Source of the DNA: Methylobacterium sp.
Lineage (GTDB): Bacteria; Pseudomonadota; Alphaproteobacteria; Rhizobiales; Beijerinckiaceae
Direction: 5' to 3'
DNA length: 64,000 nt
Assembly: GCA_020253445.1 (NCBI GenBank)
Contig: JADCBP010000005.1
Location: 434,001 to 498,000, forward strand
The translations under genes were made by a program, and so were the position numbers. Below, one piece after another: positions 46,139-63,248 of the stretch; the stretch's first letter is position 1; each line of letters opens with the position of its first letter. Under the pieces are notes generated by a model that saw only the letters and a program-made list of their open reading frames with translations, searched no databases and was not told the origin of the DNA.

Positions 46139-46936
46139 TCAGCCTTTCACGCTGCGCGCAATCTGGTCTGCGATCAGCCGCGCAGAGGCTGCCGGCTGCT
46201 CGACGGCCAGGAGATGGGCGGCGGGATCCAGCACGACGAGGCGCGCGTTCGGGATCTGGTCACATAGAAATTCAGACATCGAAACGGGCGTCGCAGGGTC
46301 CTGCTGTCCGGCGACAACAAGGGTCTGAACCGAGATATCCGGCAACAGCGCGCGAAGGTCCATCCGCGCAATCGCCTCGCAGCAGGCGGCATAGCCCTCC
46401 GCGTCATTCGTGGCGAAATCTCGTGAAATGACGCCAATCGCAGGCGGATTGGCTTCGAGATAACCTGGGGTGAACCAGCGCTGGAGTGTAGCCGCGAGAA
46501 TGGCCCCGGTGCTCTCGCGCCGGACCAGCGCGGCGCGATCGAGCCAGGCTTGCGCGAGCGGCATATGCGCCGTCGTCGCCATCAGTGTCAACGCGTTCAG
46601 GCGCCGTGGATGCCGCGCGGCCAAAGCCTGCCCGGTCATGCCTCCGAGCGACAACCCCGCGAAATACACGCGCTCCAGCCCGAGATTGTCGAGGATCGCG
46701 ATCGCATCCTCCGCAAGATCGGCAATTTCGAATGCCGCCCGGCTCTTCCTGCGGGAGGCGCCGTGGCCGCGTGTGTCGTAGCGGATGCAGCGAAAATCCG
46801 GCGCAAGTTCCTCCACGACAGCGTCCCACATGCGGTGGGTGGTGCCGAGCGAATTCGAGAACAGGATAGCCGGCCGGTCAGCCGGCCCCGCTTCCGTAAC
46901 GAAGAGCGTAGCCGAGGGTGTTTCAATGAAGGGCAT
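46139..46936 (-). CDS. pcaD: 3-oxoadipate enol-lactonase
   Basis: A 265-residue alpha/beta hydrolase with the triad Ser96 (GLSLGGM), Asp213 (GQQDPATP) and His241 (DPAAHLLA). ILFSNSLGTTHRMWDAVV and RYDTRGHGAS are typical of PcaD/CatD. It hydrolyses 3-oxoadipate enol-lactone, the CatC product, to 3-oxoadipate. It is the last gene of the Liv-type transporter operon (3 bp after livF), not of the cat operon that makes its substrate. The operator shared by both operons explains how the two could be expressed together. Confidence 0.87.
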   Translation of the reverse strand: MPFIETPSATLFVTEAGPADRPAILFSNSLGTTHRMWDAVVEELAPDFRCIRYDTRGHGASRRKSRAAFEIADLAEDAIAILDNLGLERVYFAGLSLGGMTGQALAARHPRRLNALTLMATTAHMPLAQAWLDRAALVRRESTGAILAATLQRWFTPGYLEANPPAIGVISRDFATNDAEGYAACCEAIARMDLRALLPDISVQTLVVAGQQDPATPVSMSEFLCDQIPNARLVVLDPAAHLLAVEQPAASARLIADQIARSVKG

Positions 46937-46939
46937 GGT

Positions 46940-47650
46940 TCAGACGCCAAGATGCTTTTCGAGGATCTCGGGGCGCGCCGCCAAGGCCGCCGGTGCATCA
47001 TCGAAAACGATCTCACCCTTGGCCATGATGACCATGCGGTCCGCCACCTTGGCCAGGGAGCGGTGATCCTTGTCGACCACGATGGTCGCGATCCCCTCGT
47101 TGCGAATGATACCGAGGGTTTTCCAGATTTCCTGCGCGATCAGCGGCGCGAGGCCTTCCGTCGCCTCGTCCAGAAGGATGAGATCCGGATTGGTCATCAG
47201 CGCGCGGCCGATGGAAAGCATCTGCTGCTCGCCCCCCGAGAGCTGATGGCCACCATTCATGCGGCGCTGGTGCAGGCGCGGGAAGACTTCGAAGACGCGG
47301 TCCAGCGTCCAGCGCCGCTGCCCGGAAATCCCGGCGCGCGCGGACATCGTCAGGTTTTCGACCACCGAGAGCGAACCGAACACGCCGCGCCCCTCCGGCA
47401 CGTAGGCCACGCCGGCGCGGGCGATGTCCTCCGGCGCGCTGCGCAAGGTGCTGGAACCGGCAAGGAGGATCTCGCCGCGCCTGTCCGCGATGAAACCCAT
47501 GATGGATTTCATGAGCGTCGTCTTGCCCATGCCGTTGCGGCCGATGAGCGCGATCTGCTCGCCGCGCCGCACTTCGAGATCGAGGCCATAGAGCGCCTGG
47601 CTGACCCCGTAGAAACTCTGAAGCCCACTGATGGAGAGAAGCATGCTCAT
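46940..47650 (-). CDS. livF: branched-chain/aromatic-type ABC transporter ATPase LivF
   Basis: A 236-residue ABC ATPase of the LivF type: Walker A GRNGMGKTT, signature LSGGEQQMLSIGRAL and Walker B LILLDEATEGLAP. The start overlaps the livG stop (ATGA). Together with LivG it energises the LivH-LivM channel. In this operon the cargo is probably an aromatic acid such as benzoate rather than branched-chain amino acids. Confidence 0.92.
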   Translation of the reverse strand: MSMLLSISGLQSFYGVSQALYGLDLEVRRGEQIALIGRNGMGKTTLMKSIMGFIADRRGEILLAGSSTLRSAPEDIARAGVAYVPEGRGVFGSLSVVENLTMSARAGISGQRRWTLDRVFEVFPRLHQRRMNGGHQLSGGEQQMLSIGRALMTNPDLILLDEATEGLAPLIAQEIWKTLGIIRNEGIATIVVDKDHRSLAKVADRMVIMAKGEIVFDDAPAALAARPEILEKHLGV

Positions 47651-48405
47651 GCCGCCACCTCATGATCCCCGAGATAGGCCGCGCGAACGGCCGGATGATT
47701 GCGCACGTCATCTGGCAGGCCGGAGGCGATCACCTTGCCGTCGGCCATCACGGTGAGGCGGTCGGCAAGTGCGAAGACGGCGTCCATGTCATGCTCGACC
47801 AGCAGCACGCCCCTGTCCTGTTTCAGCGAGCGGATGAGCGCGATCATCCTGAGCGCCTCCGCCTGGCCCATTCCGGCCAGCGGCTCATCGAGCAGGATGA
47901 CCTTGGGGTCGGTCGCGAGCACCATCGCGATCTCGAGCTGGCGTTGCTCGCCATGGCTCATGAAGCGGGCAATCGTCCCCGATCGCGCCTGGAGCCCCGT
48001 GGCGACAATGGCCGCGCGCGCCGCCTCGTTCACCGCATCATCGTGCTGAACAGCGCCAAGCATCCGCAAGGCATGGCCGGATTTCGCCTGCGCGGCGAGA
48101 CGCACATTCTCGAACACGGTGGAGCCCATGAAGATGGTGGTCTTCTGGTAGGAGCGCCCCACACCCGCCATGGCACGCAGATTAGGCTTCAGACCCGTGA
48201 TCTCGCGATCGCCGAGGCGCACCTCGCCCTCCGAGACCGGGATATCACCGGAAAGCAGGTTGATGAGCGTGGATTTGCCGGCACCGTTCGGGCCGATCAC
48301 CGCATGCACCTCGTTCCGGTAGATCGCGAGCGAAACATCCGAAACCGCCCTCAGCCCACCGAAGCGCCGGTGGAGCGAGCGGGCCTCCATCATCATCTCA
48401 GACAT
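47647..48405 (-). CDS. livG: ABC transporter ATPase LivG
   Basis: A 252-residue ABC ATPase: Walker [11 protein letters not shown], signature region MSHGEQRQLEIAMVL and Walker B VILLDEPLAGMG. The C-terminal DDVRNHPAVRAAYLGDHEV is the LivG tail. The signature has SHGEQ in place of SGGEQ, as is common for LivG. I chose ATG 48405 behind GGGGAG; a longer frame upstream lies inside livM. It overlaps livM by 8 bp. Confidence 0.92.
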   Translation of the reverse strand: MSEMMMEARSLHRRFGGLRAVSDVSLAIYRNEVHAVIGPNGAGKSTLINLLSGDIPVSEGEVRLGDREITGLKPNLRAMAGVGRSYQKTTIFMGSTVFENVRLAAQAKSGHALRMLGAVQHDDAVNEAARAAIVATGLQARSGTIARFMSHGEQRQLEIAMVLATDPKVILLDEPLAGMGQAEALRMIALIRSLKQDRGVLLVEHDMDAVFALADRLTVMADGKVIASGLPDDVRNHPAVRAAYLGDHEVAA

Positions 48406-49477
48406 GCTGGAATTCTCCCCTGGTTTGGGCCTGCGGATTGGTGCCCGGCGCTTCAGCGCGCCGGTTAGCGGGATCGGGCGTGCCATCGGCCGGAGTAACC
48501 GCCGCAGGTGGCCCCTCATCCCCCCGGCGCGGCAGGACAAGCTCCGCCAGTTGGCGAATGCCGCCCGGCAGCGCGAAGACGATCGCGATGATGATCAGCC
48601 CCTTGATCAGCTTCCAGTGCTCGAAGCTGCTCTTGAGAATCTCCTCGAGGCCGATCAGCGCGAAGGCGCCGATCACCGGGCCAAGCACGGAACTCATTCC
48701 GCCGAGCACCACCATCACGAGCACGGTCGCGGAGAGGTGCCATCCCAGCATCTGCGGCGCGACGAAGCCGAATTGCGCCGCCGAGAGATAGCCTGCGAGC
48801 CCGGCGATCATCGCGGAGACCACGAAGGCGACAAGCCGCAGGCGGAAGACCGGGAAACCCAAGGAGAGCGCCCGCTTCTCGTTGTCGCGCGCGGCCTGCA
48901 AGGCATGGCCGAAGGGGGATTTCACGATCGCCGTCATCAGCAGGATGGCGCCGACCAGCATCGCCAGCACCAGCCAATAGAAGTTGCTGGACTTCTCAAG
49001 ATCGATCAGCGCAAAGCCGGCAAGAGCGATCTCGGGCTTGAAGTAGATGTACATGCCATCCGAGCCGCCGCCGATCTTGGTGTCGTGGAAGAGGTAGAAA
49101 AGCATCTCGCCGAAAGCGAGCGTCACCATGATGAAGTAGATGCCCCGCGTGCGCAGCGAGAGCGCCCCGATGATCGTCGCAACCACCGCAACCGCGAGAA
49201 GCGCCACCGGCAGCGAGAGCCAGAACGAGGCTCCTCCGCTCTCGGGCGTCATGAAGCCGAGCATGTAGCCGGCAAGCCCGAAGAACGCGGCATGGCACAG
49301 GCTGACAAGGCCGCCATAGCCCACGACGAGGTTGAGCGAGAGCGCCACCATGCCCATCAGCATCGCCTTGCTTGCGAACTGGACATAGTAGTTGGGCGCA
49401 AGGAGCGGCAGGGCCGCAGCGGCGATCAAGGTGAGCGCGACAAGCCCGCGCAGCATGGTCGGATGAAGCCGGATCAT
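48398..49477 (-). CDS. livM: ABC transporter permease LivM
   Basis: A 359-residue membrane permease of the LivM type with about ten helices. Typical segments are SLNLVVGYGGLVSLCHAAFFGLAGYM, RTRGIYFIMVTLAFGEMLFY and ALQAARDNEKRALSLGFPVFRLRLVAFV. The hydrophilic C-terminal tail (Pro/Ala-rich, about 45 residues) is longer than usual. It follows livH after a single base (TGA G ATG). Confidence 0.91.
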   Translation of the reverse strand: MIRLHPTMLRGLVALTLIAAAALPLLAPNYYVQFASKAMLMGMVALSLNLVVGYGGLVSLCHAAFFGLAGYMLGFMTPESGGASFWLSLPVALLAVAVVATIIGALSLRTRGIYFIMVTLAFGEMLFYLFHDTKIGGGSDGMYIYFKPEIALAGFALIDLEKSSNFYWLVLAMLVGAILLMTAIVKSPFGHALQAARDNEKRALSLGFPVFRLRLVAFVVSAMIAGLAGYLSAAQFGFVAPQMLGWHLSATVLVMVVLGGMSSVLGPVIGAFALIGLEEILKSSFEHWKLIKGLIIIAIVFALPGGIRQLAELVLPRRGDEGPPAAVTPADGTPDPANRRAEAPGTNPQAQTRGEFQHV

Positions 49478-49478
49478 C

Positions 49479-50348
49479 TCAGTTTCCCTTTCCCATCAAG
49501 CCGTTGGGGCGCCAGAGCAGGATGCCCGCCATCAGCACGTAGATGAGGATCGACGAGAATTGCGGGAAGAAGACCTTCCCGAACGTATCGGTGAGGCCAA
49601 TCATCAGCGCGCCGATCGCGGCGCCCGCGACCGAGCCAATGCCACCCAGAACAACCACGACGAAGGAGAGGATGAGCATGCCGTCGCCCATGCCAGGGAA
49701 CACGGTCGAGATCGGGGAAACAAGAATGCCTCCCAAAGCCGCCAGCGCGATGCCGCCGGCGAAGACGTAGCGGTTCACCTTGTCGAAGGGGATGCCGAGC
49801 GCGCGCGTCATGTCGCGATTCTCGGCACCGGCGCGGATGATCATGCCGAGGCGAGTGCGCTGGATCACGAAGAAGATCAGCGCGGCCAGAACGAGGCAAA
49901 CCACGCAGAGCGCGATGCGGTAGACCGGGTAGGAGAGAATGTCGGTGAGCTGGATGGAGCCCTTCAGCCAGGCGGGCGGCGCCACGGAATGCACATCCTT
50001 GCCGAACAGGATCTGCCGCACTTCGTCGATCACGAGGATCAGCCCGAAGCTCAGAAGCACCTGCGCGAGGTGATCGCGCCCGATCATCCGCTTGACGAAG
50101 ATCTCCTCCAGCAGGAGGCCGAGCACGAAGGAAATCGCCACGCCGCCGATCAGCGCCAGCATGAAGCTGCCGGTATAGGCCGCAATCCACCAGGCGAGAT
50201 AGGCGCCGAGCATGTAGAAGGCGCCATGGGCGAGGTTGATGACGCCGAGAATCCCGAAAACAAGCGTCAGTCCGCTGGCGACCAGAAACAGCACAAGCCC
50301 GTATTGCAGGCCGTTCAGCAACTGAACGGCAAAGGTCAGCGCATCCAT
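49479..50348 (-). CDS. livH: ABC transporter permease LivH
   Basis: A 289-residue permease of the LivH type: LNGLQYGLVLFLVASGLTLVFGILGVINLAHGAFYMLGAY at the N-terminus, IRAGAENRDMTRALGIPFDKVNRYVF as the EAA-type loop and VVLGGIGSVAGAAIGALMIG near the end. The ATG follows AAGGAGCCGCGCC. A GC-rich stem-loop separates it from the binding-protein gene. Confidence 0.92.
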   Translation of the reverse strand: MDALTFAVQLLNGLQYGLVLFLVASGLTLVFGILGVINLAHGAFYMLGAYLAWWIAAYTGSFMLALIGGVAISFVLGLLLEEIFVKRMIGRDHLAQVLLSFGLILVIDEVRQILFGKDVHSVAPPAWLKGSIQLTDILSYPVYRIALCVVCLVLAALIFFVIQRTRLGMIIRAGAENRDMTRALGIPFDKVNRYVFAGGIALAALGGILVSPISTVFPGMGDGMLILSFVVVVLGGIGSVAGAAIGALMIGLTDTFGKVFFPQFSSILIYVLMAGILLWRPNGLMGKGN

Positions 50349-50429: not shown

Positions 50430-51641
50430 TCAGCTGACGCGGCAGCCCCGTGCCGGATCGTTCACCGCCTGCCCGGCGATGGAGACGAGTTCATTCCGGC
50501 CGTTGCGAACCTCCCGCAGGTAGATGTTCTGGATCGGGTTGCCGGCGGCGTTGAAGCTCAACGGGCCGCGCGGGCTGTCGATCCTCGCGGCGCGCATGGA
50601 GCGGACCACATCGTTGCGGGCCGACCAATCCCCCTTGACGGCCTTGAGGCCTTCATGCAGCAGCGCGCCGGCATCATAGCCCTGCACGGCATAGATATCG
50701 CCATCCGCGCCGCTCTTCGCCTTGAAATCCGCGAGGAATTTGCGGTTGGCAGGGTTGTCGAGGTCATCGGCGTAATGGAGCGTCGTGCGAAGGCCATTGG
50801 CGCTCTCGCCCTGCGCGGGAATGGTGCCATCGGTGAGGAAGCCCGCGCCATAGAGCGGGATTGCCTTGTTGAGCCCGGCGGCCGCGTAATCCTTCACGAA
50901 CTTCACCGCACCGCCACCTGCAAAGAAGGCGAAAACGGCATCCGGCTTCAGCGTCGCGATGCGCGTGATCAGCGCCTGGAATTCCACCTCCGGGAAGGGC
51001 AGGGCGAGATCTTCGATCACCGTGCCGCCAACCTTCTTGAAGCCCTCCCCGAAGGCGCCGACCATCTGCTGGCCTGCCGCATAGCGCCAGGTGATGGTGG
51101 CCACCTTGCGATGGCCCGCATCGAACATCACCTTGCCCATCGGCTCGCAGACCTGCCAGTTCGAGAACGAGGTGCGGAAGATATTCGGCGCGCACATCGG
51201 GCCGGTCGCCTCGTTCACGCCTGCATTGGGGATGACCAGCATCGTGTTGGTGTCCCGCGCGACCTTCACCATGGCCATGGCGACGCCGGAATGCACGGTG
51301 CCCACCACGACATCGACCTTCTCGCGGCCGACGAGGCGGTTCATGTTGTCGGTCGCGGTCTCGGGTTTTGATTCATCATCGACCTGCACGAATTCGATCC
51401 GCCGGCCACCGAGCGCGCCACCCTGCTGCTCGACGTAAAGGCGGAAGCCGTCGTCAATGAACTTGCCCAGCTTCGCGAAGGTACCCGAATAGGGGAGCAT
51501 GAAGCCCACCTTCAGCGGCGCTCCTTGCGCGATTGCCGGCGTCGGAAAGCGAAAGGCCGAGGCCGCCGTCACCAGCCCCGCCGTGCCCAGAAGCAGCGAG
51601 CGGCGGTTCAGCGACGAGCCTGAGGAAATCATACGTGACAT
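50430..51641 (-). CDS. livK: Liv-type ABC transporter substrate-binding protein
   Basis: A 403-residue periplasmic binding protein of the leucine/aromatic family. The N-terminus NRRSLLLGTAGLVTAASAF with a later APAIAQ-like cut region (TPAIAQG) looks like a twin-arginine signal. Core motifs are KVGFMLPYSGTFAKLGKFIDDGFRLYVEQQ, VDVVVGTVHSGVAMAMVKVA and YDAGALLHEGLKAVKG. The ATG at 51641 stands behind AGGAGGGACTGCC; a longer frame crosses the promoter region and was rejected. Members of this family bind benzoate-like acids as well as amino acids. A CatR/BenM-type operator upstream makes benzoate or a related acid the likely ligand. Confidence 0.88.
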   Translation of the reverse strand: MSRMISSGSSLNRRSLLLGTAGLVTAASAFRFPTPAIAQGAPLKVGFMLPYSGTFAKLGKFIDDGFRLYVEQQGGALGGRRIEFVQVDDESKPETATDNMNRLVGREKVDVVVGTVHSGVAMAMVKVARDTNTMLVIPNAGVNEATGPMCAPNIFRTSFSNWQVCEPMGKVMFDAGHRKVATITWRYAAGQQMVGAFGEGFKKVGGTVIEDLALPFPEVEFQALITRIATLKPDAVFAFFAGGGAVKFVKDYAAAGLNKAIPLYGAGFLTDGTIPAQGESANGLRTTLHYADDLDNPANRKFLADFKAKSGADGDIYAVQGYDAGALLHEGLKAVKGDWSARNDVVRSMRAARIDSPRGPLSFNAAGNPIQNIYLREVRNGRNELVSIAGQAVNDPARGCRVS

Positions 51642-51769: not shown

Positions 51770-51803
51770 ATCGATTGGGTGTATCTTCATACTTCAAAGG
51801 TAT
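51770..51803. promoter_or_regulatory. CatR/BenM-type operator upstream of the liv-pcaD operon
   Basis: ATAC-N7-GTAT at 51789-51803 is an exact match to the box of BenM/CatM-type LysR regulators. A weaker half-site pair, ATCG-N7-GTAT, lies at 51770-51784, 19 bp away in phase. The 38 bp from 51766 match the catB-lysR gap at 32 positions and in the same orientation relative to the minus-strand operons. Confidence 0.75.
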
Positions 51804-51842: not shown

Positions 51843-51866
51843 AAAAAAAACGCGCCAACGGGCGCG
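51843..51866 (-). terminator. intrinsic terminator of the cat-ben-BKACE operon
   Basis: On the minus strand CGCGCC-CGTT-GGCGCG is followed by eight T residues. It lies 35 bp after the BKACE stop and before the liv operon promoter, so the two operons are separate transcription units. Confidence 0.88.
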
Positions 51867-51900
51867 CTTTAAGGACATGCCTTGCTTGCGAGGTATGCGA

Positions 51901-52737
51901 TCAGGCCGCGCGAAGCCCCAGGATCGCGCGCGCCTCGGCCGGCGTCGCGGGGGCCCGGCCATGGCGGCGGATGGCCTCCACAGCCACAGAGACCAGCTCG
52001 GCATTGCCGTTGGCGAGGCGATCCTTCGTGATGCGGATATTGTCCTCCAGGCCGGTGCGCACAGCATCGGCACCGCGCGCCAGCGCCCATTCCATCACGC
52101 TCGCCTGATACCGGCCGATGCCGGCTGCGGTCCAGGTCGCTCCAGGAATGACGCGACGGGTTTCCGCGAGCAGGATATCGAGAAGGTGCTCGTCTGCGGG
52201 CATGGCGTTCTGCACGCCCATGACGAATTGCACATGCGGCCGCGCCGACATCAAACCGGCCTCGATGAGGCTCTTCGCGCCATGGATATGCGAAAGATCG
52301 AAGATCTCGATCTCCGGCGCGATGTCATGGGTCTTCATCCGGGTCGCGAGATCGGTCACGAGTGTCGTGTGGTTCTCGTAGACGATCGTCGGGAAATTGA
52401 CCGAGCCTGTCGAAAGCGAGGCCATGTCCGGCCGGTGCACGAGGCTGAGGCCGCGCGCGGCGGGGTCGCGCCCGCGCCCGCCGGTCGAAAACTGCACGAT
52501 CATGCCGGGGCAATGCTTGCGCACGCCAGCCTGCACCTCGGCGAAGCGCGCGGGATCGGATGACGGGCTCTCGTCATCGTTGCGCACATGGATATGCACC
52601 AGGGTCGCGCCCGCCTCATAGGCCGCATGGGTCGATTCGATCTGCTCTGGCGGCAGAACCGGCAGGGTCGGATTATCCTTCTTGCGCGGCACCGAGCCCG
52701 TGATGGCGACCGCAACGACAACCGGTTTCGTGGTCAT
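51901..52737 (-). CDS. beta-keto acid cleavage enzyme (BKACE, DUF849)
   Basis: A 278-residue TIM-barrel enzyme of the BKACE family, whose founder cleaves 3-keto-5-aminohexanoate with acetyl-CoA to acetoacetate and a CoA ester. Zinc ligands expected are the two His of VHIHVRNDD (about residues 48 and 50) and the Glu of RTGLEDNIRI. The PGMIVQFSTGGRG segment is the substrate loop. It starts 3 bp after benD, behind AGGGG, and closes the cat-ben operon. 3-Oxoadipate is a beta-keto acid, so reaction with acetyl-CoA would give succinyl-CoA and acetoacetate directly. That assignment is my inference; the family identity is firm. Confidence 0.9.
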   Translation of the reverse strand: MTTKPVVVAVAITGSVPRKKDNPTLPVLPPEQIESTHAAYEAGATLVHIHVRNDDESPSSDPARFAEVQAGVRKHCPGMIVQFSTGGRGRDPAARGLSLVHRPDMASLSTGSVNFPTIVYENHTTLVTDLATRMKTHDIAPEIEIFDLSHIHGAKSLIEAGLMSARPHVQFVMGVQNAMPADEHLLDILLAETRRVIPGATWTAAGIGRYQASVMEWALARGADAVRTGLEDNIRITKDRLANGNAELVSVAVEAIRRHGRAPATPAEARAILGLRAA

Positions 52738-52740
52738 GGC

Positions 52741-53526
52741 TTACCCCTGGTCGCCGCCGCCGACGGGCAGCACGGTTCCGGTGATGTAGGATGCCGCATC
52801 GGAAGCCAGAAACAGGATCGCGGCAGACATCTCGCGCAGCAATCCGTATCGCTTCATGTGGCTGGAGCGGATGGTCTGGTCGACCACCTCCTGCATCCAG
52901 GCCTTGTCCTGCGGGGTCTGTTTCGCGGCATTGCGCGGAACTTTCCGGGGCGGGGCGGTCGTTCCGCCCGGTGCCACGGCATTGATACGGATGTTGCGCG
53001 CGCCGATCTCGAAGGCCATCGAGGCCGTCAGCGCATTCACGGCACCCTTCGCGGCGGAATAGGGGATGCGGTTGATGCCCTTGGTCGCAATCGACGAGAC
53101 ATTCACGATCGCGCCGCGATTCTGCTCATACATGTAGGGCAGAACGGCACGGCAGCCCCAGAGCGTGGGATAAAGCGAGCGGTTGATCTCCGCCAGGATC
53201 TCGCTTTCGCCAAATTCTTCGAAGGGCTTCATCCAGATGGCCCCGCCGACATTGGTGATGAGCACATCAATGGCGCCGTAGGTGCGGAAGGCCTTCGCCA
53301 TGGCCTGTTCGTTGCCCGACCAGGTCTCGAGATCGGCCTCGAGAGACTGGGCCTGCCCCTGACCATGCGCCTTGTTGATCTCCGCTGCCACCTCATGCAC
53401 GAGTGGCGAGCGATCGACCAGCGTGAGACAGGCCCCATCGGCGGCGGCTTCCAGCGCCACCTGCTTGCCGATGCCTTGCGCCGCCCCGGTGACGACCATG
53501 CTCTTGCCGTGAAAACGCGCGGACAT
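52741..53526 (-). CDS. benD: benzoate cis-diol dehydrogenase
   Basis: A 261-residue SDR: TGAAQGIGKQVALEAA cofactor site, NVSSIATKG (Ser) and YSAAKGAVNALT (Tyr-x3-Lys). The segments NVGGAIWMKPFEEF and LPYMYEQNRGAIVNVSS are characteristic of BenD. It converts the 1,2-dihydroxy-cyclohexadiene carboxylate from BenABC to catechol with NAD reduction and loss of CO2. I chose ATG 53526, which overlaps the benC stop by one base (TGATG) and has GGAGG at 8 bases; an in-frame GTG one codon earlier is unlikely. Confidence 0.9.
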   Translation of the reverse strand: MSARFHGKSMVVTGAAQGIGKQVALEAAADGACLTLVDRSPLVHEVAAEINKAHGQGQAQSLEADLETWSGNEQAMAKAFRTYGAIDVLITNVGGAIWMKPFEEFGESEILAEINRSLYPTLWGCRAVLPYMYEQNRGAIVNVSSIATKGINRIPYSAAKGAVNALTASMAFEIGARNIRINAVAPGGTTAPPRKVPRNAAKQTPQDKAWMQEVVDQTIRSSHMKRYGLLREMSAAILFLASDAASYITGTVLPVGGGDQG

Positions 53527-54536
53527 CACTTGGCCTCCGAGGGGTTGAACTTCTCGAAATGGAAGTTGGCGGGCTTCACGCCCCTTTCCGCGAGAGTGCC
53601 GCGCACGGCATCGACCATCGGCGGCGGGCCGCAGAGATAGAGATCGAGATTGCCGCCATGGAGGGCCGCATCCGGCAGGTGATGGGTCACATAGCCCTTG
53701 CGCTCATGCGTCGAAGCCGGGTCTGCCACAACGGTCACATAGGTGAAGCCGGGAATGGCCGCCGCGAAGGCCGCCAGCTTGTCGAGTTCGACAAGATCAG
53801 CGTCATTGGTGACACCATAGATCATGTGGATCGGCTGCCCGGTTTCCTTATGCCGGAGCGATTCCAGCATGGCCAGGAAGGGCGCGAGTCCCGTGCCGCC
53901 TGCCAGGAACAGCAGCGGGCGTGTCACGTCGCGCAGGTAGAAGCTGCCGATCGGCCCCGTCAGCGTGAGTGCGTCACCTGGCCTGGCGCTGCCGGCGAGG
54001 TAGCTCGACATCAACCCGTTGGGGATGTTGCGGACCAGAAACTCCACGACGCCCTCCCTCGGCATGGACGAGAAGGAATAGGAGCGGGTCTGGCTCGTGC
54101 CCGGCACCGAGACGTTCACATATTGCCCCGGCAGGTAGGAAAGTTGGCCGGCATCCTTCACCCGCACGGCAAAGCCGATGCTGGTGGGAGAAAGCTGGCG
54201 AACCTCCACCATCTCGGCGGCCATGGCGGCAGGCTTGACCTTGCAGGCCGTGGACGCCGCGGGAATGCGGATCACGCAATCGGATTTTGCCTTCATCTGG
54301 CAGGTGAGAACGAAGCCCTCGCGGGCCTCGTCCTCGGTCATCGCGTCCTCGATATAGGAGCCGAGGGAGTAATCCCCGCTTTCGCATTGGCATTTGCAGG
54401 TGCCGCAGGCGCCATCCCGGCAATCCATGGGAATGTTCACGCCCACGCGATAGGCCGCGTCGGCCACGAGTTCGTCGGCGCGCGCCTCGATGAAGCGCGT
54501 CACGCCGTCCTCAAAGTTCAAGGCGATGCGATGCAT
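53526..54536 (-). CDS. benC: benzoate 1,2-dioxygenase reductase subunit
   Basis: A 336-residue electron-transfer protein. The N-terminal plant-type [2Fe-2S] ferredoxin domain uses Cys39, Cys44, Cys47 (CRDGACGTC) and Cys79 (FVLTC). An FAD domain follows (RSYSFSSMP), then an NAD domain (LLFLAGGTGLAPFLAML; YLCGPPPMVDAV). It passes electrons from NADH to the BenAB oxygenase. Length and domain order match BenC/XylZ. Confidence 0.94.
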   Translation of the reverse strand: MHRIALNFEDGVTRFIEARADELVADAAYRVGVNIPMDCRDGACGTCKCQCESGDYSLGSYIEDAMTEDEAREGFVLTCQMKAKSDCVIRIPAASTACKVKPAAMAAEMVEVRQLSPTSIGFAVRVKDAGQLSYLPGQYVNVSVPGTSQTRSYSFSSMPREGVVEFLVRNIPNGLMSSYLAGSARPGDALTLTGPIGSFYLRDVTRPLLFLAGGTGLAPFLAMLESLRHKETGQPIHMIYGVTNDADLVELDKLAAFAAAIPGFTYVTVVADPASTHERKGYVTHHLPDAALHGGNLDLYLCGPPPMVDAVRGTLAERGVKPANFHFEKFNPSEAK

Positions 54537-54572
54537 GGCGGCGCCCTCCCGGCACCCCGCTCTTCCGGCGGT

Positions 54573-55097
54573 TCAGATGTGATAGATATCGATGACGTGG
54601 TGGATGTAGTCGTTCTTCAGAACGATCTTCTTTGCCGTGATCAGCGGCCGCTCGCCCGAGACATCGAGCGTGTAAAAGGACGTTCCGAAATAGCTGTCGG
54701 TCGTCTTGTAGCGGAAGCTCAGGGTGAACCAGTTGAAGCGCAGCTTCACGACACCCTCCGCCCGTTCGAGGATCTCGACATTCGAGATGTTGTGCGAGGT
54801 GCGCGGCTCGGGAAGCGAAGTGGCCGAGGAGCGCTCGGTGCGAATGCGGAAAACACGATCCTCGAGGCCCTGCTTCGAGCCGTAATAGATCAGCGAGATC
54901 TCGCTCTGCGGGTCTTCGGTCAGCAGATCGTCATCGTCCCAGGCCGGCATGTGGAAGGTTGCGTTCGGCGCGTAATGCGCGAGCCAGCCGTCCCAGTCGC
55001 GGTCGTCGAGGCAGCGTGCCTCGGCATAAAGGAAGGCCTGGATTTCTTCGATGGTCACTTCGCGCGCCTGGGGCACGGCCTTGAGAACGGCAGACAT
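54573..55097 (-). CDS. benB: benzoate 1,2-dioxygenase small subunit
   Basis: A 174-residue ring-hydroxylating dioxygenase beta subunit with the cone-like fold. Typical segments are IQAFLYAEARCLDDRDWDGWLAHYAPNATFHMPAWDDDD and SLIYYGSKQGLEDRVFRIRTERSSATSLPEPRTSH. It has a structural role in the alpha3-beta3 oxygenase. It lies 72 bp after benA, with a stem-loop in the gap. Confidence 0.93.
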   Translation of the reverse strand: MSAVLKAVPQAREVTIEEIQAFLYAEARCLDDRDWDGWLAHYAPNATFHMPAWDDDDLLTEDPQSEISLIYYGSKQGLEDRVFRIRTERSSATSLPEPRTSHNISNVEILERAEGVVKLRFNWFTLSFRYKTTDSYFGTSFYTLDVSGERPLITAKKIVLKNDYIHHVIDIYHI

Positions 55098-55136
55098 GAC
55101 GTCTCTCCTTGAGCGTTTCCTGAAAGGTGGGATGGG

Positions 55137-55162
55137 GCGGGCTGCTTTTCGTGGCAGCCCGC
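55137..55162 (-). other. intercistronic stem-loop benA-benB
   Basis: GCGGGCTGC and GCAGCCCGC pair perfectly (9 bp) around an 8-base loop just after the benA stop. No T-run on the minus strand, so a processing or stability element is more likely than a stop signal. Confidence 0.5.
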
Positions 55163-55169
55163 TTGCCCG

Positions 55170-56555
55170 TCATTCGGCGGCAATGGCGTTGGCGGCGTCG
55201 GCGGCGCGCTGGTCCTTGCGCAGGCCGTCGATCAGCGCCTGCTTCCAGTAGGCGTGCTGCACCACGAACAGACCTTCATCCTCGGTCTTCTTGCCGGAGA
55301 GCAGCGGCTTCATCCCGATCGATTCCGCATCGGCATCCGCACCCTTGATCCAGTGCGTCGCTCCGCGGGAAAGGTCGTTCCACTGGGCGTGGCGCGCGCC
55401 ATAGCCGATCTGGCAGGAGCGGAACTCCTCGAGATCATCCGGCGTCGCCATGCCCGAGGCGTTGAAGAAATCCTCATACTGCCGGATGCGGCGGGCACGT
55501 GCTTCCGCGCTTTCACCCTTGGGCGCGATGCAATAGATCGTCACTTCCGTCTTGTCGACCGAAATGGGGCGATACATGCGGATCTGCGACGAGAACTGAT
55601 CCATCAGGAACACGTTCGGGTAGAGGCAGAGGTTGCGGCTCTTCTCGATCATCCAGTCCGCGCGGGCCTGGCCATAGGCCTGGGTCAGCTCCTCGCGGCG
55701 CTCCCAGTTCGGTCGATCCTGCGGGTTCGACCAGTTGGTCCAGAGCAGGAGGTGGCCGTATTCGTAGGAATAGAAGCCGCCGCCCTGCTTGGCCCAGCCG
55801 CCGGCATCCATGGCGCGGATGTCATCCTTGCCCGCCGCGGCTTCCGCCGCCGCCTTGCGCTGCTGGGTGGTCGCGGCATAGTTCCAGTGCACCGACGAGA
55901 CATGGTAGCCATCGGCGCCATTCTCGGCCTGGAGCTTCCAGTTGCCGTCATAGATGTACTGCGAATTGCCGCGCAGCACTTCCAGGCCTTCCGGCGACTG
56001 GTCGACGATCAGGTCGATGATCTTCCTTGCTTCACCGAGGTGCTCTTCCAGCGAGACCACGTCATCGCTGAGCGAGCCGAACAGGAAGCCGCGATAATTC
56101 TCGAAGCGCGCAAGCTTCTGGAGATCATGGCTGCCGTTCTTGTTGAAGCTCTCGGGATAGCCCGCGCCATCCGGGTCTTTCGCCTTCAGCAGCTTGCCGG
56201 TGTTGTTGAAGGTCCAGCCATGGAAGGGGCAGGTATAGGTCGACTTGTTGCCCCGCTTGTGCCGGCAGATCATCGCACCGCGATGCGAGCAGGCATTGAG
56301 GAAGGCGTGGAGCTTTCCGGTGCGATCCCGCGAGATCACGATCGGCTGGCGGCCGATATACCCTGTGATATAATCGTTGTTGTTGGGGATCTGGCTTTCA
56401 TGGGCGAGATAGACCCAATTCCCTTCCCAGATATACTTCATTTCCAATTCGAAATATTCCGGATCGGTGAAGATTTCCCGCTTGCAGCGGAAGTTGCCGG
56501 TGGCCTCGTTGTGTTCCACCGAAGCTTCGAGCCGTGCGATCATCGCCTCAGACAT
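55170..56555 (-). CDS. benA: benzoate 1,2-dioxygenase large subunit
   Basis: A 461-residue Rieske oxygenase alpha subunit. The Rieske cluster uses Cys89, His91, Cys109 and His112 (CSH ... TCPFHGW). The catalytic iron site shows Asp215, His218 and His223 in DGYHVSSVH. The length and segments such as [18 protein letters not shown] match BenA rather than other Rieske oxygenases. It adds O2 to benzoate to form the cis-diol. ATG 56555 follows AAGGGAGAACGACC. Confidence 0.95.
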
Positions 56556-56586
56556 GGTCGTTCTCCCTTGGGAATGGCTTGGAGCG

Positions 56587-56607
56587 GGAGCCGCTTCGGG
56601 CGGCTCC
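56587..56607 (-). other. intercistronic stem-loop catA-benA
   Basis: GGAGCCGC and GCGGCTCC form an 8-bp perfect stem with a 5-base loop between catA and benA. No T-run. It could be a processing site that separates the cat and ben parts of one mRNA. Confidence 0.5.
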
Positions 56608-56619
56608 ACGGGTTTCGCG

Positions 56620-57549
56620 TCACGCGGCGATCACATGCTGGCGCTCGACGATCGTCGTCGGCGCGCCGGCCTTCTCGCGCACCAGCGCGATGTCGAACCT
56701 GGCGCGGGCGAAGGGGCGGTTCACGCCCGCCTTGCGGATCTCGTCTGCATCGGTCACGCGCTCGAGCGTCACGATGAGTTCGTCACGGGTGCCGAAGGCG
56801 AAATCGGTGTGGAGATACTTGTCGCCCGTGAAGTTGAACTGCGTGGTCAGCTTGCGGAAGCCCGGCGCGGTCACGAAGAAATGCACATGGGCGGGGGGCT
56901 CGGCGTGGCGTCCCAGCGCGTTCATCAGCGTGCGCGTGCAGCTTTCCGGCGGGCAGCCATAGCCATTCGGCACGATGGTGCGGGCGAGGTAGCGGCCCTG
57001 CGCATCGGTCTCGATGCGGCGGCGCAGATTGTAGGGCGCCTGCTCGCCATCGATGAAGGAATACCCGCCCTTGGAGTTCGCGTGCCAAAGATCCACGATG
57101 GCGCCCGGCACCACGTTGCCGTTCTCGTCGCGCACCTGGCCCGAGATGAACATCACCTCGCCGGGATCGGTTCCGTCATCCATGCGGGCCTCGCCCTTGG
57201 TAAGCGGCGCGCCGGCGACATAGAGCGGGCCTTCGATGGTGCGCATCGTGCCGCCCTTGATGCCCGCGAGGCGTTCGGCCTCATCGAGCCTGAGGTCGAG
57301 GAAATGCTCCAGGGCGACGCCGGGGACCATGAGGCCCGGCTCATTGTTCTTCGCGGTCTGGCTGAGGAAGCCGACAGCGGCCCAGAACTCATCCATGGAG
57401 ACATCGCATTCGTCGATCACCTGCATCAGGCGATAGAGAAGGCGGTTGGTCACTTCCTTCACGCGCGGCTGGCCGCCCGGGAGATTGATGCCCGAGGCTT
57501 CGGCCGCGAGCTTCTTCATGTCGGCTTTGGAGATCAGGTTGGCAGGCAT
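56620..57549 (-). CDS. catA: catechol 1,2-dioxygenase
   Basis: A 309-residue intradiol dioxygenase. Iron ligands typical of the family appear as Tyr in GPLYVAGAP, Tyr in [11 protein letters not shown] and the His residues of [15 protein letters not shown]. The N-terminal helical linker domain ([12 protein letters not shown] to about residue 100) is that of catechol dioxygenases. It opens catechol between the hydroxyls to cis,cis-muconate. The ATG at 57549 has GGAGG seven bases before it. Confidence 0.94.
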
Positions 57550-57584
57550 GGGCGTTTCCTCCGATTTTGTTGATTGAGGCGGGA

Positions 57585-57875
57585 TCAGCGATCGTCGTCG
57601 CGGATCGAAGAGGGGTGGCGGCAGAGCGGGGTGACGCTGATCTCCATGAAGGGGAACAGCGGCAGCGTGCTCAAGAGGTCGTGGAGTTCCTGCGTACTGC
57701 CAACATCGAAGATGCTCGTGTTGGCGTAGCGGCCGGCATGGCGCCACAGGTGGCGCCAGATGCCCTGCTGCTGGAGCGCTTGCGCGCGTTCGCGCTCGGC
57801 CTTCTTGAGCGTTTCAGCTCGCTCGGCGGGCAGATCATGGGGGATGCGCACATCCATCTGGACCTGGAAAAGCAT
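57585..57875 (-). CDS. catC: muconolactone delta-isomerase
   Basis: A 96-residue protein, exactly the usual CatC length. It starts MLFQVQMDVRIPHDLPAERA, and RHAGRYANTSIFDVGSTQELHDLLSTLPLFPFM is the family signature. It converts muconolactone to 3-oxoadipate enol-lactone. I chose ATG 57875 with AGGA upstream; a GTG two codons earlier overlaps the catB stop. Confidence 0.95.
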   Translation of the reverse strand: MLFQVQMDVRIPHDLPAERAETLKKAERERAQALQQQGIWRHLWRHAGRYANTSIFDVGSTQELHDLLSTLPLFPFMEISVTPLCRHPSSIRDDDR

Positions 57876-57877
57876 GG

Positions 57878-59053
57878 TCACGATCCTGTCTTGAGTTGCG
57901 GCAGCACATGCAGGCTGCGCTCGGCGCGGTCCCGCCGGAAGCGGCCGACCTGGCCCTCATCCAGCCGGATGCCGAGACCGGGCTCGGTCGGCACCTTCAG
58001 GCTGAAATCGGAGTAATCGAGCGGCTCCGCGAGGATTTCCTCGGTGAGCAGCAGCGGACCGAACAGCTCCGTGCCCCATTCGAGCTTGGCGAAGGTCGAG
58101 AAGAGATGGGCGGAAGCCGCCGTGCCGATGGCCCCCTCGAGCATGGTGCCGCCATAAAGGCCGATGCCCGCGGCTTCCGCGATGGCCCCGACCTTGGCGC
58201 CCGCAAAGAGCCCGCCGGATTGCGCGATCTTGAGCGCGAACACATCCGCTCCTTCGCTCTGCGCCACCTGGAAGGCCGTTTCCGGCCCGTTCAGCGCCTC
58301 ATCCGCCATGATGGCGACGGAGGTTTCACGGGCAAGCCGCGCCATGCCGCGAATGTTCTTCAGCGCGATCGGCTGTTCGATGAGATCGACACCGGCATCG
58401 CGCAGCATGGGCAGGCAGGCCGAGGCGGTCGCCTCGCTCCAGGCCTGGTTGATATCCACGCGGACCGAGGCGCGATCGCCCAGAGCCGCCTTGATCGCCG
58501 CGACATGCGCGATGTTCTTCCTTGCGTCCCCGCGCCCGATCTTGAGCTTGAAGATGTTGTGGCGGCGCCTGGCGAGCATGTCTTCCGCCTCGGCGATATC
58601 CCGCGCGGTATCCCCGCTCGCGAGCGTCCAGGCCACGGGCAGGCGATCATGATGGCGCCCACCGAGAAGCTCCGAGGCCGGCAGCCCCACCCGCTTGCCG
58701 AGCGCGTCGATCAGCGCCGTTTCCACAGCGCATTTCGCGAAATGGTTGCCCTGCACGGTCTTGGCGATGAGCGCCATCGTGACGCCGATACGGCTTGCAT
58801 CCGACTGAAGCAGGATCGGGGCGATGTAGGTATCAATCGCGAGCTTCATGCCCTCGGGGCTCTCCGGCCCATAGGCAAGGCCGCCGATCGTCGTTCCCTC
58901 GCCGATGCCGATGATCCCGTCCGCCATGCGCAGCCGCACGATCATCAGGGTCTGGCCCTTCATGGTCGTCATCGCGAGCTGGTGGGGCCGGATGGTCGGC
59001 AGATCCACCAGAAAGGTCTCGACCTCAACGATCCGTGCCGCGCTCAGTGCCAT
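57878..59053 (-). CDS. catB: muconate cycloisomerase
   Basis: A 391-residue enolase-superfamily enzyme. The catalytic KxK is Lys169/Lys171 (IFKLKIGRG). The metal ligands are Asp200 (VRVDINQAW), Glu226 (LIEQPI) and Asp251 (IMADEAL). It cyclises cis,cis-muconate to muconolactone. First gene of the operon, divergent from the LysR gene across a 114-bp gap that holds the operator. The ATG at 59053 follows GGAG. Confidence 0.94.
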   Translation of the reverse strand: MALSAARIVEVETFLVDLPTIRPHQLAMTTMKGQTLMIVRLRMADGIIGIGEGTTIGGLAYGPESPEGMKLAIDTYIAPILLQSDASRIGVTMALIAKTVQGNHFAKCAVETALIDALGKRVGLPASELLGGRHHDRLPVAWTLASGDTARDIAEAEDMLARRRHNIFKLKIGRGDARKNIAHVAAIKAALGDRASVRVDINQAWSEATASACLPMLRDAGVDLIEQPIALKNIRGMARLARETSVAIMADEALNGPETAFQVAQSEGADVFALKIAQSGGLFAGAKVGAIAEAAGIGLYGGTMLEGAIGTAASAHLFSTFAKLEWGTELFGPLLLTEEILAEPLDYSDFSLKVPTEPGLGIRLDEGQVGRFRRDRAERSLHVLPQLKTGS

Positions 59054-59112: not shown

Positions 59113-59146
59113 ATCGATTGCGTCTATTTTCATACCTCACGGGTAT
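59113..59146. promoter_or_regulatory. CatR/BenM-type operator between catB and its LysR regulator
   Basis: ATAC-N7-GTAT at 59132-59146 is the exact BenM/CatM-type box; an imperfect partner ATCG-N7-CTAT lies at 59113-59127. The site is 22 bp before the regulator start and about 80 bp before catB, so it can serve autoregulation and activation together. The same arrangement recurs at 51770-51803. Confidence 0.8.
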
Positions 59147-59167: not shown

Positions 59168-60085
59168 ATGGAACTACGGCATCTGCGTTATTTCACCACC
59201 GTCGCGGCGGAGGGTTCCTTCAGCCGAGCGGCCGAAAAACTGCATATCGCGCAGCCCCCGCTCTCCCGGCAGATCCAGCAACTGGAAGAAGAGCTGGGCG
59301 TGCGGCTTCTGGATCGCGGGCGGCCGCTCACCCTCACCGAACCTGGTCGATACCTGTTCGAGCAGTCCCGACAGATCCTTCAGCGCGTGGAAGATGTCCG
59401 CGCGATGACCCGGCGCATCGCCAAGGGCATGGTGCTGCAATTCAATATCGGCTTCGTTGCGTCCACGCTTTATGATGATTTGCCGGAACTGATCCGACGC
59501 TTCCGCATCGCGGTGCCCGGTATCGAGGTGCAACTGCTGGAAATGACGACGCTCGAGCAGGTCGCCGCGCTGAAGGACGGGCGCATTGATATCGGCTTCG
59601 GGCGTCTGCGCTTTGATGATCCGCTGATCATCCGCAAGGTCATCCGCGAGGAGAGGCTCTGCATCGCGGCACCCAAGGGTCACCCGCTGGTGGCGCGCGG
59701 CACGGCCCTGTGCCTGAAAGATACGGCGGGCGAGCCGCTGATCCTCTATCCCCGTGCGCCGCGGCCGGGTTATGCCGACCAGGTGCTGAGCTTCTTTCAT
59801 GATGCGGAGATCGATCCGGTTATCGCCACGGAGGCGCGTGAGTTGCAGACAGCTTTGGGCCTGGTCGCGTCCGGCGGGGGCATCACCATCGTGCCGGCCT
59901 CCGTTCGCCGCCTTGGGCGGGATGACGTGGCCTATATCGATCTCGACGAGCCGAAGATGACCTCTCCGATCATCATGAGCTACCGCAAGAACGACAGCTC
60001 CCGCCTCCTTACTCAACTGGTCGATCTTGTTCGAATGTTCGACAGTTGGGACACCGCCGTGGAGACGACACGCCCAGGCCCCTGA
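59168..60085 (+). CDS. catR: LysR-type regulator of the CatR/BenM type
   Basis: A 305-residue LysR regulator. The N-terminal helix-turn-helix (MELRHLRYFTTVAAEGSFSRAAEKLHIAQPPLSRQI) has the classic PPLSRQIQQLE recognition helix. The effector domain contains LYDDLPELIRRFR and LGLVASGGGITIVPASV, as in CatR, CatM and BenM. Those regulators respond to cis,cis-muconate (BenM also to benzoate). It is divergent from catB with an operator between, and a second operator lies before livK. Symbol given on context and similarity. Confidence 0.85.
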   Translation: MELRHLRYFTTVAAEGSFSRAAEKLHIAQPPLSRQIQQLEEELGVRLLDRGRPLTLTEPGRYLFEQSRQILQRVEDVRAMTRRIAKGMVLQFNIGFVASTLYDDLPELIRRFRIAVPGIEVQLLEMTTLEQVAALKDGRIDIGFGRLRFDDPLIIRKVIREERLCIAAPKGHPLVARGTALCLKDTAGEPLILYPRAPRPGYADQVLSFFHDAEIDPVIATEARELQTALGLVASGGGITIVPASVRRLGRDDVAYIDLDEPKMTSPIIMSYRKNDSSRLLTQLVDLVRMFDSWDTAVETTRPGP

Positions 60086-60122: not shown

Positions 60123-61100
60123 TCACTGGATCTTGAATTCCATGTCCTTGGTCATGCCGTTGAGTTTCGCCACCTCGGCTTCGAAAAAGCTTTGTGCGAT
60201 CGCGAGCGATGTCGTGTCGACCGGAATCGAGCCCATCTTTTCGAGCGCCGCGCGCACTTCCGGGGTCTTCATCGTCTCCGCGATGGCGGCATTGATCTTG
60301 GTCGCGATGTCATCCGGCGTTTCCGCCCGTACAAACAGACCAGCCCAGATCGCGTGATCGAATTTCGGCAAGCCCTTGCTTTCGCCGAAAGCGACGAGTT
60401 CCGGAATGAAATTGTCGCGCTTTTCCGATACCCAGCCGAGCATCTTCAGCTTCTTCTGTTCCTGGAGCCCCTTGTAGGAGGCCTGATAGGGCAGGATCGC
60501 GAAATCGACGGCACCACCGGCCAGATCCTGGAACATCGGCGCCGCGCCGCGATAGGGCACATGCGTGACCTCGATGCCTGCCTGCTTGGCGAGATCCTCC
60601 GACAGGATGTGATAGAGCGAGCCGACGCCGACGCTGCCATAGGGCGTGGGCTTGCCGAGCTTCTTCGAATACTCGATCAGTTCATCGATGTTGTTCGCAG
60701 GCAGATCCGGCCGCGCGAGCAGGATCAGCGGGTTCTTCGTGATCTGCGTGACGTGGCGGAACTGGTTCGGCTTGAACTTGATATCCGGGTTCGTCAACGG
60801 CGACAGGATCAATTCGTTCGGCGAGCCCTGGAAAATCATCCGGCCGTCAGCGGGTGTTTGCAGCAGCTTCATGGCCGCGAGACCACCGCTTGCTCCGCCC
60901 AGATTCTCGATCAGAACGGTCTGGCCCAGCACCTGCTGGAGGCGGGGCGCGATGATGCGCGCGATGGCATCCGACGGCCCGCCGGCGGGATAGGGCACCA
61001 TCAGCGTGATGGTCTTTCCCGGACCAAGCTGGGCCTGGGCCGAGGCGCTCATGGCAAGACCTGCCAGAAGACCGAGAACAAGACTGCGCCGTTTCATCAT
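60123..61100 (-). CDS. tctC: tripartite tricarboxylate transporter substrate-binding protein (TctC)
   Basis: A 325-residue periplasmic binding protein of the Bug/TctC family with a signal peptide (RRSLVLGLLAGLAMSASAQAQ). Signatures are ITLMVPYPAGGPSDAIARIIAPRLQQVLGQTVLIENLGGASG, TPYGSVGVGSLYHIL and VTHVPYRGAAPMFQDLAGGAVDF. It delivers a carboxylate to TctAB. ATG 61100 follows GGAGG. The ligand is unknown; the nearness to benzoate genes suggests but does not prove an aromatic or dicarboxylic acid. Confidence 0.92.
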   Translation of the reverse strand: MMKRRSLVLGLLAGLAMSASAQAQLGPGKTITLMVPYPAGGPSDAIARIIAPRLQQVLGQTVLIENLGGASGGLAAMKLLQTPADGRMIFQGSPNELILSPLTNPDIKFKPNQFRHVTQITKNPLILLARPDLPANNIDELIEYSKKLGKPTPYGSVGVGSLYHILSEDLAKQAGIEVTHVPYRGAAPMFQDLAGGAVDFAILPYQASYKGLQEQKKLKMLGWVSEKRDNFIPELVAFGESKGLPKFDHAIWAGLFVRAETPDDIATKINAAIAETMKTPEVRAALEKMGSIPVDTTSLAIAQSFFEAEVAKLNGMTKDMEFKIQ

Positions 61101-61138
61101 GGGGTGTTCCTCCTGTTTGGCCTTGGCCTCTTCGCGGC

Positions 61139-62641: not shown

Positions 62642-62649
62642 GGCTGGCC

Positions 62650-63126: not shown

Positions 63127-63248
63127 CTGCCCCTCCCCTGGGTTCGCTTCCTCACCGATGCACTGCTTTGACCCTTGCGGATCTTTTCTGTTGGCCATCG
63201 CCCCGGACTCAGGCGTTCGGAGCGGACGGAAAACCGGATCGCATTGTC

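Follow-up and report, generated by a model that had tools for sequence, protein, structure and literature searches.

The DNA studied here is a stretch of 64,000 nucleotides (64 kb, hereafter the window) from a Methylobacterium sp. (contig JADCBP010000005.1, positions 434,001 to 498,000), and our subject is a benzoate operon that closes with a gene for a beta-keto acid cleavage enzyme (BKACE, DUF849). Our results suggest that this BKACE very likely cleaves 3-oxoadipate with acetyl-CoA, as predicted from its family and gene context. The operon is the minus-strand run 59053..51901, which reads catB-catC-catA-benA-benB-benC-benD-BKACE. All eight genes were confirmed by a search with NCBIfam profiles; seven of them pass the curated cut-off of their family and CatA falls slightly below (paired values are score and cut-off in bits). 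In order of transcription these are catB, muconate cycloisomerase (57878..59053; TIGR02534.1, 541.8/334.95); catC, muconolactone isomerase (57585..57875; TIGR03221.1, 143.9/130.6); catA, catechol 1,2-dioxygenase (56620..57549; best family TIGR02439.1, 373.7 bits, below the cut-off of 392); benA and benB, the large and small subunits of benzoate dioxygenase (55170..56555; TIGR03229.1, 826.3/780.95, and 54573..55097; TIGR03232.1, 274.0/225.55); benC, the benzoate dioxygenase reductase (53526..54536; NF040810.1, 539.2/430); benD, benzoate diol dehydrogenase (52741..53526; NF040811.1, 423.1/380); and the BKACE gene itself (51901..52737; 278 aa).

A gap of 3 bp lies between the benD stop codon and the start of BKACE. 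An intrinsic-terminator-like hairpin on the same strand (51847..51870; 10 pairs, a loop of 4 and a T-run) lies 30 bp past the BKACE stop. By itself this pattern is weak, since the 14.4 kb scanned contain 8 terminator-like sites and shuffled sequences a mean of 9.8; the hairpin at the operon end has the longest stem among the 8. Gene order, gap and terminator are as described in an earlier sequence-only reading of this DNA, which had also pointed to a nearby pcaD. That gene, for 3-oxoadipate enol-lactonase, lies at 46139..46936 on the minus strand (TIGR02427.1, 261.3/255.85); it is the sole protein over the cut-off among 10 matches in the genome, a second one (contig C3) falling short by less than 1 bit. 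The same reading held that pcaIJ and pcaF are missing from the window, and this was borne out: nothing in the 64 kb is matched by the PcaI/ScoA and CoA-transferase models. The thiolase of the window (8930-10138) was rejected as PcaF, being of the acetyl-CoA C-acetyltransferase type (657.4/514) and scoring 272.7/597 against the PcaF model.

The BKACE protein matches NF053568.1 over its full length (profile positions 1-273 of 274; 451.5 bits, cut-off 350). This profile is an NCBIfam equivalog named '3-oxoadipate:acetyl-CoA acetyltransferase', and cleavage of 3-oxoadipate is thus already a curated function. The match supports the one-step cleavage of 3-oxoadipate with acetyl-CoA that had been put forward earlier, and it assigns the protein to the NF053568 specificity subgroup. 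The closest solved structures are 3no5, 3fa5 and 3chv. The superfamily motifs are present as HIHVR at 48, STGG at 84 and TGLEDN at 228, and their aligned counterparts in Kce 2y7d are HLHIR, STGG and CGFEDN; we take HxH, STGG and GxEDN to be the metal-site and catalytic motifs of BKACE. The cut-off of the Kce model itself is missed (241.9/382). The glutamate in the ITGAETT stretch of Kce, presumably the residue that binds the substrate's amino group, is aligned to a valine in ITGSVPR of the window protein.

Membership of NF053568 was rejected as proof of function, because its cut-off is exceeded by proteins from each of the two main groups in the BKACE tree; these groups comprise 13 rows with 51–58% identity to the window protein and 89 rows, the window protein included, with at least 62%. 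The whole assembly spans 3.28 Mb in 18 contigs, is listed as 100% complete and contains a single NF053568 copy over the cut-off, the one in the window. A second BKACE-family gene (contig C14, 935343-936236; L019) was rejected as a back-up, since it is of the 3,5-dioxohexanoate type (555.7/430).

In a tree of 102 BKACE proteins, 11 rows (window included) have a cat context. A further 16 rows have a pcaGH context, 7 have quiC, 7 have pcaD or pcaC alone, 1 has a maleylacetate reductase with an intradiol dioxygenase and 1 has pcaIJF. The window BKACE sits within a clade of 11 rows, 10 of them cat-linked, with a Shimodaira–Hasegawa-like approximate likelihood ratio test (SH-aLRT) value of 99; all our trees are quick ones without bootstrap. 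The complete order catB-C-A-benA-B-C-D-BKACE recurs in five other distinct loci (L123, L124, L129, L130, L131; L127 and L128 were taken as the same loci as L124 and L123 and left out of the tree), and L206 has ben, cat and BKACE together in another order. Four loci carry catB-C-A-benD-BKACE without benABC (L132, L135, L141, L154). They belong to Bosea, Microvirga and another Rhizobiales, and their benD-like dehydrogenases are 70–72% identical. A benD-like gene retained without its dioxygenase may serve another dihydrodiol that feeds catechol.

We also examined 21 plasmid loci among 86 matching records, one of which (Caballeronia) has no annotation. In the other 20, the stretch with BKACE includes a ring-cleavage dioxygenase in 16, a CoA-transferase in 2 and a thiolase in 1; these counts come from incomplete PLSDB gene tables and a biased choice, as Palleronia, Pseudosulfitobacter, Paracoccus liaowanqingii, P. 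aestuarii and Phaeobacter P88 were picked for a visible pcaG or dioxygenase. The Ruegeria plasmid was picked for an apparent link to a solved structure, which we assume to originate from Ruegeria. On annotated plasmids BKACE lies either within pca gene runs or beside maleylacetate reductase and an intradiol dioxygenase. In Skermanella rosea, one copy belongs to a pcaBDCHG run and another lies beside maleylacetate reductase, and in the Palleronia run pcaC-H-G-BKACE-D-B the genes overlap or almost touch. All four plasmid proteins scanned (Palleronia, Pseudosulfitobacter, Skermanella pSR-2, Ruegeria) pass the NF053568 cut-off, with 469.5–491.6 bits against 350. Unsubstituted 3-oxoadipate is the intermediate common to the catechol, protocatechuate and hydroxyquinol-type branches. 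Since the three ring-cleavage branches with BKACE homologues all end there, gene context points to 3-oxoadipate as the substrate.

Taken together, the genes would form the following route. Benzoate would be converted to catechol by BenABCD; CatA, CatB and CatC would carry catechol to 3-oxoadipate enol-lactone, and PcaD would yield 3-oxoadipate. BKACE would then react 3-oxoadipate with acetyl-CoA to give succinyl-CoA and acetoacetate. The route therefore requires the use of acetoacetate, which the sequence-only reading had omitted. The most likely return route would be a CoA-transferase of the Sco clade (described below), which would turn acetoacetate and succinyl-CoA into acetoacetyl-CoA and succinate, followed by an acetoacetyl-CoA thiolase yielding two acetyl-CoA. 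We are less sure of this fate of acetoacetate than of the cleavage step. The net sum, 3-oxoadipate + CoA to succinate + acetyl-CoA, is the same as for PcaIJ plus PcaF. Hence, two dedicated enzymes would be replaced by one dedicated enzyme and the housekeeping enzymes of ketone-body metabolism.

Profile searches and a subunit-A tree found no PcaI-clade CoA-transferase anywhere in the assembly; a Sco-clade pair, a FadX-like protein and a PcaF-class thiolase in a paa cluster are present. The Sco-clade pair (contig C17, 167484-168831; 255 bits) is the sole PcaI/ScoA-family pair of the genome and lies away from the operon. Across 41 genomes (this one and 40 relatives), 9 have members of this family at 335–366 bits and everything else scores at most 273.6. 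The subunit-A tree of 28 proteins, one per genome, has a PcaI clade of 9 rows and another clade of 18 rows, with L079 apart on a long branch. A pcaF lies in the same short locus (~3.7 kb) in 7 of the 9 PcaI-clade rows versus none of the 18 rows in the clade that holds the protein of this genome. The closest solved structures of that protein are succinyl-CoA:3-ketoacid CoA-transferases, in a comparison that may or may not have included a PcaI structure. The pair is retained in genus mates without an over-cut-off BKACE (G003, G009, G014). Because it lies away from aromatic genes and is kept in these genus mates, a housekeeping Sco role is indicated in this genome.

The only PcaF-class thiolase over the cut-off (contig C17, 217783-218970; 664 bits, cut-off 597) is most readily interpreted as the PaaJ enzyme of phenylacetate degradation, because it is flanked by paaE on one side and, with one FadB-like gene between, by paaZ on the other. 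Like the Sco-clade pair, it is on a contig other than that of the operon. On contig C15 a thiolase gene comes directly before a gene for an acetoacetyl-CoA reductase (373.1/302.1), and the two would offer acetoacetyl-CoA a use. The genome also contains pcaC-pcaH-pcaG (contig C14, 226575-228401; L214, 8576-10402). As the window BKACE is the sole over-cut-off copy and pcaCHG lies elsewhere, this single enzyme probably serves the catechol and protocatechuate branches alike.

We compared the distribution of BKACE and PcaI in two genome samples, both of which contain G000, G001, G017 and G024. Among 289 genomes of the class, 19 have a BKACE over the cut-off and 26 have PcaI-range proteins, with no overlap, which is not significant (1.7 expected, P 0.16). 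In the 56 genomes with pcaH (protocatechuate dioxygenase beta over its cut-off), BKACE occurs in 10 and PcaI-range proteins in 15, again without overlap (hypergeometric P 0.03). BKACE is enriched with pcaH (10/56 vs 9/233 others, Fisher p 8e-4), and in 6 of the 10 genomes having both, one of them G151, the two genes are no more than 2 kb apart. In the set of 41 genomes, BKACE occurs in 16 and PcaI-range proteins in 9, with an overlap of 0 (P 0.006). The PcaI-range threshold was chosen after the scores were known, at 296.9 bits or more in the class sample (next lower 278.8; 6 of the 26 at 297–318), and the score gap from 273.6 to 335 in the set of 41 was likewise used post hoc. The genomes are related, and these p-values are guides only.

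Several observations, like the non-significant class-wide result above, speak against the cleavage role proposed here or against its generality. Some concern the distribution itself. At the chosen thresholds, 31 of the 56 pcaH genomes have neither a BKACE nor a PcaI-range protein. In Acetobacter garciniae (L176, 5288-8891) pcaI, pcaJ, pcaF and BKACE stand in one run, and in Limimaricola a PcaI-clade gene and pcaF lie beside the pca-BKACE operon. Because these two carry both systems, replacement of PcaIJ/PcaF by BKACE is a tendency and not a rule. In favour of the cleavage role, M. extorquens given pcaHGBL and kce (with van genes), without pcaIJF, grew on protocatechuate; on the other side, the accessible text of that transfer study contains no removal of kce and does not state the host's own pcaIJF status (PMC12379598).

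Another group of observations concerns the substrate. No marker gene was found near 59 of the 102 BKACE rows, in a tblastn search with self-set identity floors in which 'none' means none of the chosen markers. Many of these are close homologues from Methylobacterium and Bradyrhizobium. Together with the promiscuity described for the BKACE family in the available text of PMC4922564, they might be explained by an enzyme acting mainly on some other beta-keto acid, for instance a methyl-3-oxoadipate derived from methylbenzoates, and only to a minor extent on 3-oxoadipate. We regard this as improbable, as homologues adjoin catechol, protocatechuate and hydroxyquinol-type genes, four of four scanned pass the NF053568 cut-off, and the intermediate that pathway knowledge assigns to all these branches is the unsubstituted compound. 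Copies 77–83% identical to the window protein that lack neighbouring cat, ben and pca markers were seen in L137 and other Methylobacterium and in L171 and other Bradyrhizobium; in L171 the vicinity includes a class III CoA-transferase and another BKACE. The neighbours of L137 and L171 revealed no common theme. Possibly, these marker-less copies serve another pathway.

A counterexample comes from the genome G314. The window-type CatA is rare in the class, with 2 of 289 genomes, this one and G314, and the latter lacks an over-cut-off BKACE. There, catBCA faces a CoA-transferase pair-pcaF-pcaD run, a classical set (L239; G314 contig C95, 4472-11308). In the tree, subunit A of this pair falls in the Sco clade and not in the PcaI clade (SH-aLRT 97 for a clade of 21 rows; these later CoA-transferase trees omit the long-branch row L079). 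We had considered Sco-clade placement by itself as a mark of an acetoacetate enzyme, and this was rejected on the evidence of G314: with this pair in the clade, membership cannot decide between acetoacetate and 3-oxoadipate as substrate. 3-Oxoadipate CoA-transferases may have more than one evolutionary origin. Hence, a genome without the PcaI clade is not thereby proven unable to activate 3-oxoadipate.

These results leave some room for a classical route with scattered genes, in which the Sco-clade pair on contig C17 acts as PcaIJ, the paa-cluster or another thiolase acts as PcaF, and BKACE has a side or overflow activity. A PcaF-class thiolase is indeed present in the genome, and one family model covers both Sco and PcaIJ enzymes. 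In line with this, growth of Roseovarius nubinhibens on 4-hydroxybenzoate needs a CoA-transferase that was found by alignment and called PcaIJ; pcaF is dispensable there, other thiolases respond, and loss of the CoA-transferase leaves some consumption of 4-hydroxybenzoate, which the authors, in the text accessible to us, read as thiolase cross-talk (PMC12442348). The scattered classical route can account for a dispensable pcaF via other thiolases only, and cleavage by BKACE would equally explain the result, if the strain carries a BKACE. Moreover, BKACE is the last gene of the operon, whereas the Sco-clade pair and the thiolase sit on another contig, and the genus mates without BKACE keep the pair as would be expected of a housekeeping gene. 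We therefore consider the scattered classical route unlikely.

A hidden activator of 3-oxoadipate might also be sought in the FadX-like CoA-transferase of contig 9, which in the stretch L023, 6852-12600, lies near a quiC-like gene that is 53% identical to a Phyllobacterium fusion protein. The paa-cluster thiolase would then complete the pathway. This protein matches PF01144 with 102.6 bits; it is below the cut-offs of FadX (415.7 bits, cut-off 750) and PcaI/ScoA (60.8/128.5), and its gene is unlinked to the ben, cat and pca genes of the genome. We consider this the least probable of the explanations.

Cleavage of 3-oxoadipate by BKACE thus remains the reading that we prefer, and it raises the question of how general the subsequent use of acetoacetate might be. 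On plasmid pP88_d of Phaeobacter inhibens the order is pcaC-H-G-BKACE-CoA-transferase A-B-pcaD-pcaB (L229, 4277-9986), and the annotation of this pca stretch lists no thiolase. Both CoA-transferase subunits are in the Sco clade (subunit A 236.6 bits). The run is perhaps a self-contained BKACE-acetoacetate route; given G314, the arrangement fits such a route but does not prove it. A broader proposal is that a 'ketone-body' lower pathway is widespread in Alphaproteobacteria, with BKACE, a Sco-clade CoA-transferase and an acetoacetyl-CoA thiolase replacing PcaIJ and PcaF in all three branches. We hold this proposal tentatively, at somewhat less than the even chance we had given it earlier, because a Sco-clade pair lies beside pcaF and catBCA in G314. 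If it were true, some pcaIJ genes called by alignment would be acetoacetate CoA-transferases, and the findings in Roseovarius nubinhibens would take on another meaning.

Regulatory sites suggest a link between BKACE and PcaD. A LysR-type regulator resembling CatM and BenM is encoded divergently from catB (59168..60085, plus strand), with BenM (250.9 bits) and CatM (235.0 bits) as its best solved-structure matches. It does not reach the cut-offs of the curated BenM and CatM models (258.2/600 and 252.4/580), both of which are exception-level, and the AlsR model is marginally ahead (263.8 bits). The CatM/BenM consensus is ATAC-N7-GTAT (PMC6628147), and AkACC-N5-GGTAT is given for related regulators (PMC6449761), as far as the accessible text of these papers shows. 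The window has two ATAC-N7-GTAT sites against 0.03 expected, one in the catB/LysR intergenic region (59132..59146) and one between the BKACE terminator and a run of transporter genes and pcaD (51789..51803). The 28 nt adjoining each site, which overlap it by 4 bases, are identical at 25 of 28 positions, a pattern derived from its own two matches.

Related loci show a similar arrangement. ATAC-N7-GTAT occurs shortly before catB in 9 of 10 related cat loci and a second site in 8 of 10. The second site is ~250 bp before pcaD in 4 of these 8 and after BKACE, as in the window, in 3; the partner gene is not evident in the remaining one, L130. The background is 10 sites in 2.12 Mb of other loci, of which two repeat sites already counted, in the window and in G004, and two are a single site present in duplicate. 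From these sites we infer that the cat-ben-BKACE operon and the transporter-pcaD run are probably both under the control of the divergent regulator. Hence, pcaD and BKACE are predicted to belong to one regulon, and these shared sites are the best evidence within the window that BKACE acts after PcaD.

The transporter genes downstream of the terminator are on the same strand as the operon, and their run ends in pcaD. They encode a branched-chain-type ABC substrate-binding protein (50430..51641; PF13458, 257.9 bits, scanned from 51638, with the start placed at the ATG at 51641), a LivH-like permease (49479..50348; PF02653), a second, LivM-like permease (48398..49477; assigned by position and gene call only), a LivG-like ATPase (47647..48396; PF00005 and PF12399) and a LivF-like ATPase (46940..47650; PF00005). 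Beyond the LysR regulator, 60123-63198 of the window (minus strand) encodes TctC, TctA and TctB of a tripartite tricarboxylate transporter. We take TctC to be a member of COG3181. The regulons of CatM/BenM include COG3181 transport proteins, according to the part of PMC6449761 that was available.

The variant lower pathway put forward in the sequence-only reading is supported by these results, and the idea is already in print, as the accessible parts of three papers show (PMC6449761, PMC8963497, PMC12379598). The operon is a well-supported further example of a published shortcut and not a new discovery. A literature search without most subscription journals found no prior report of this exact operon, or of an operon combining BKACE with a Sco-clade CoA-transferase. 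Our analysis extends a published shortcut that has had little testing to an entire benzoate operon and its regulator, and adds a genome-wide check for the textbook enzymes. If the acetoacetate route were true, similarity-based annotation of pcaIJ would mislead in some Alphaproteobacteria, and results of pcaF knock-outs would be open to another reading. Engineers would also gain a lower pathway that needs a single dedicated enzyme and delivers acetoacetate, which is useful as a precursor.

Comparison with known systems shows where the operon agrees and where it differs. For Ralstonia eutropha (Cupriavidus necator) H16, we take the model tag CUPNH to denote C. necator. In the available text, cleavage of beta-ketoadipate was proposed for a COG3246 gene of its catechol regulon (PMC6449761), where, as in the window, a BKACE-family gene belongs to a CatM/BenM-controlled set with catBCD and catA-benABCD. 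Unlike the window, this strain is of another bacterial class, and the window pcaD lies apart from the operon, in a run that has an ATAC-N7-GTAT site of its own; the two systems were compared by description only. Clusters of Methylobacterium with pcaHG-kce-pcaB and without pcaIJF, for which 3-oxoadipate cleavage was proposed (PMC8963497, PMC12379598, each in its accessible part), share the enzyme type, the lack of pcaIJF in the cluster and the proposed reaction, and ten pca-linked Methylobacterium copies are 81–84% identical to the window BKACE. They differ in serving the protocatechuate branch, whereas the window BKACE belongs to the neighbouring cat-linked clade. Bastard et al. (2014), as cited in the consulted part of PMC4922564, also count beta-ketoadipate as a substrate of BKACE enzymes; family and reaction are alike, and we claim no chemical difference. 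Compared to the classical PcaIJ and PcaF, the substrate is the same, and so is the net reaction once an acetoacetate CoA-transferase and an acetoacetyl-CoA thiolase are added. In the classical route CoA is attached before the C–C bond is cleaved, whereas in the BKACE route it would be attached afterwards, onto acetoacetate.

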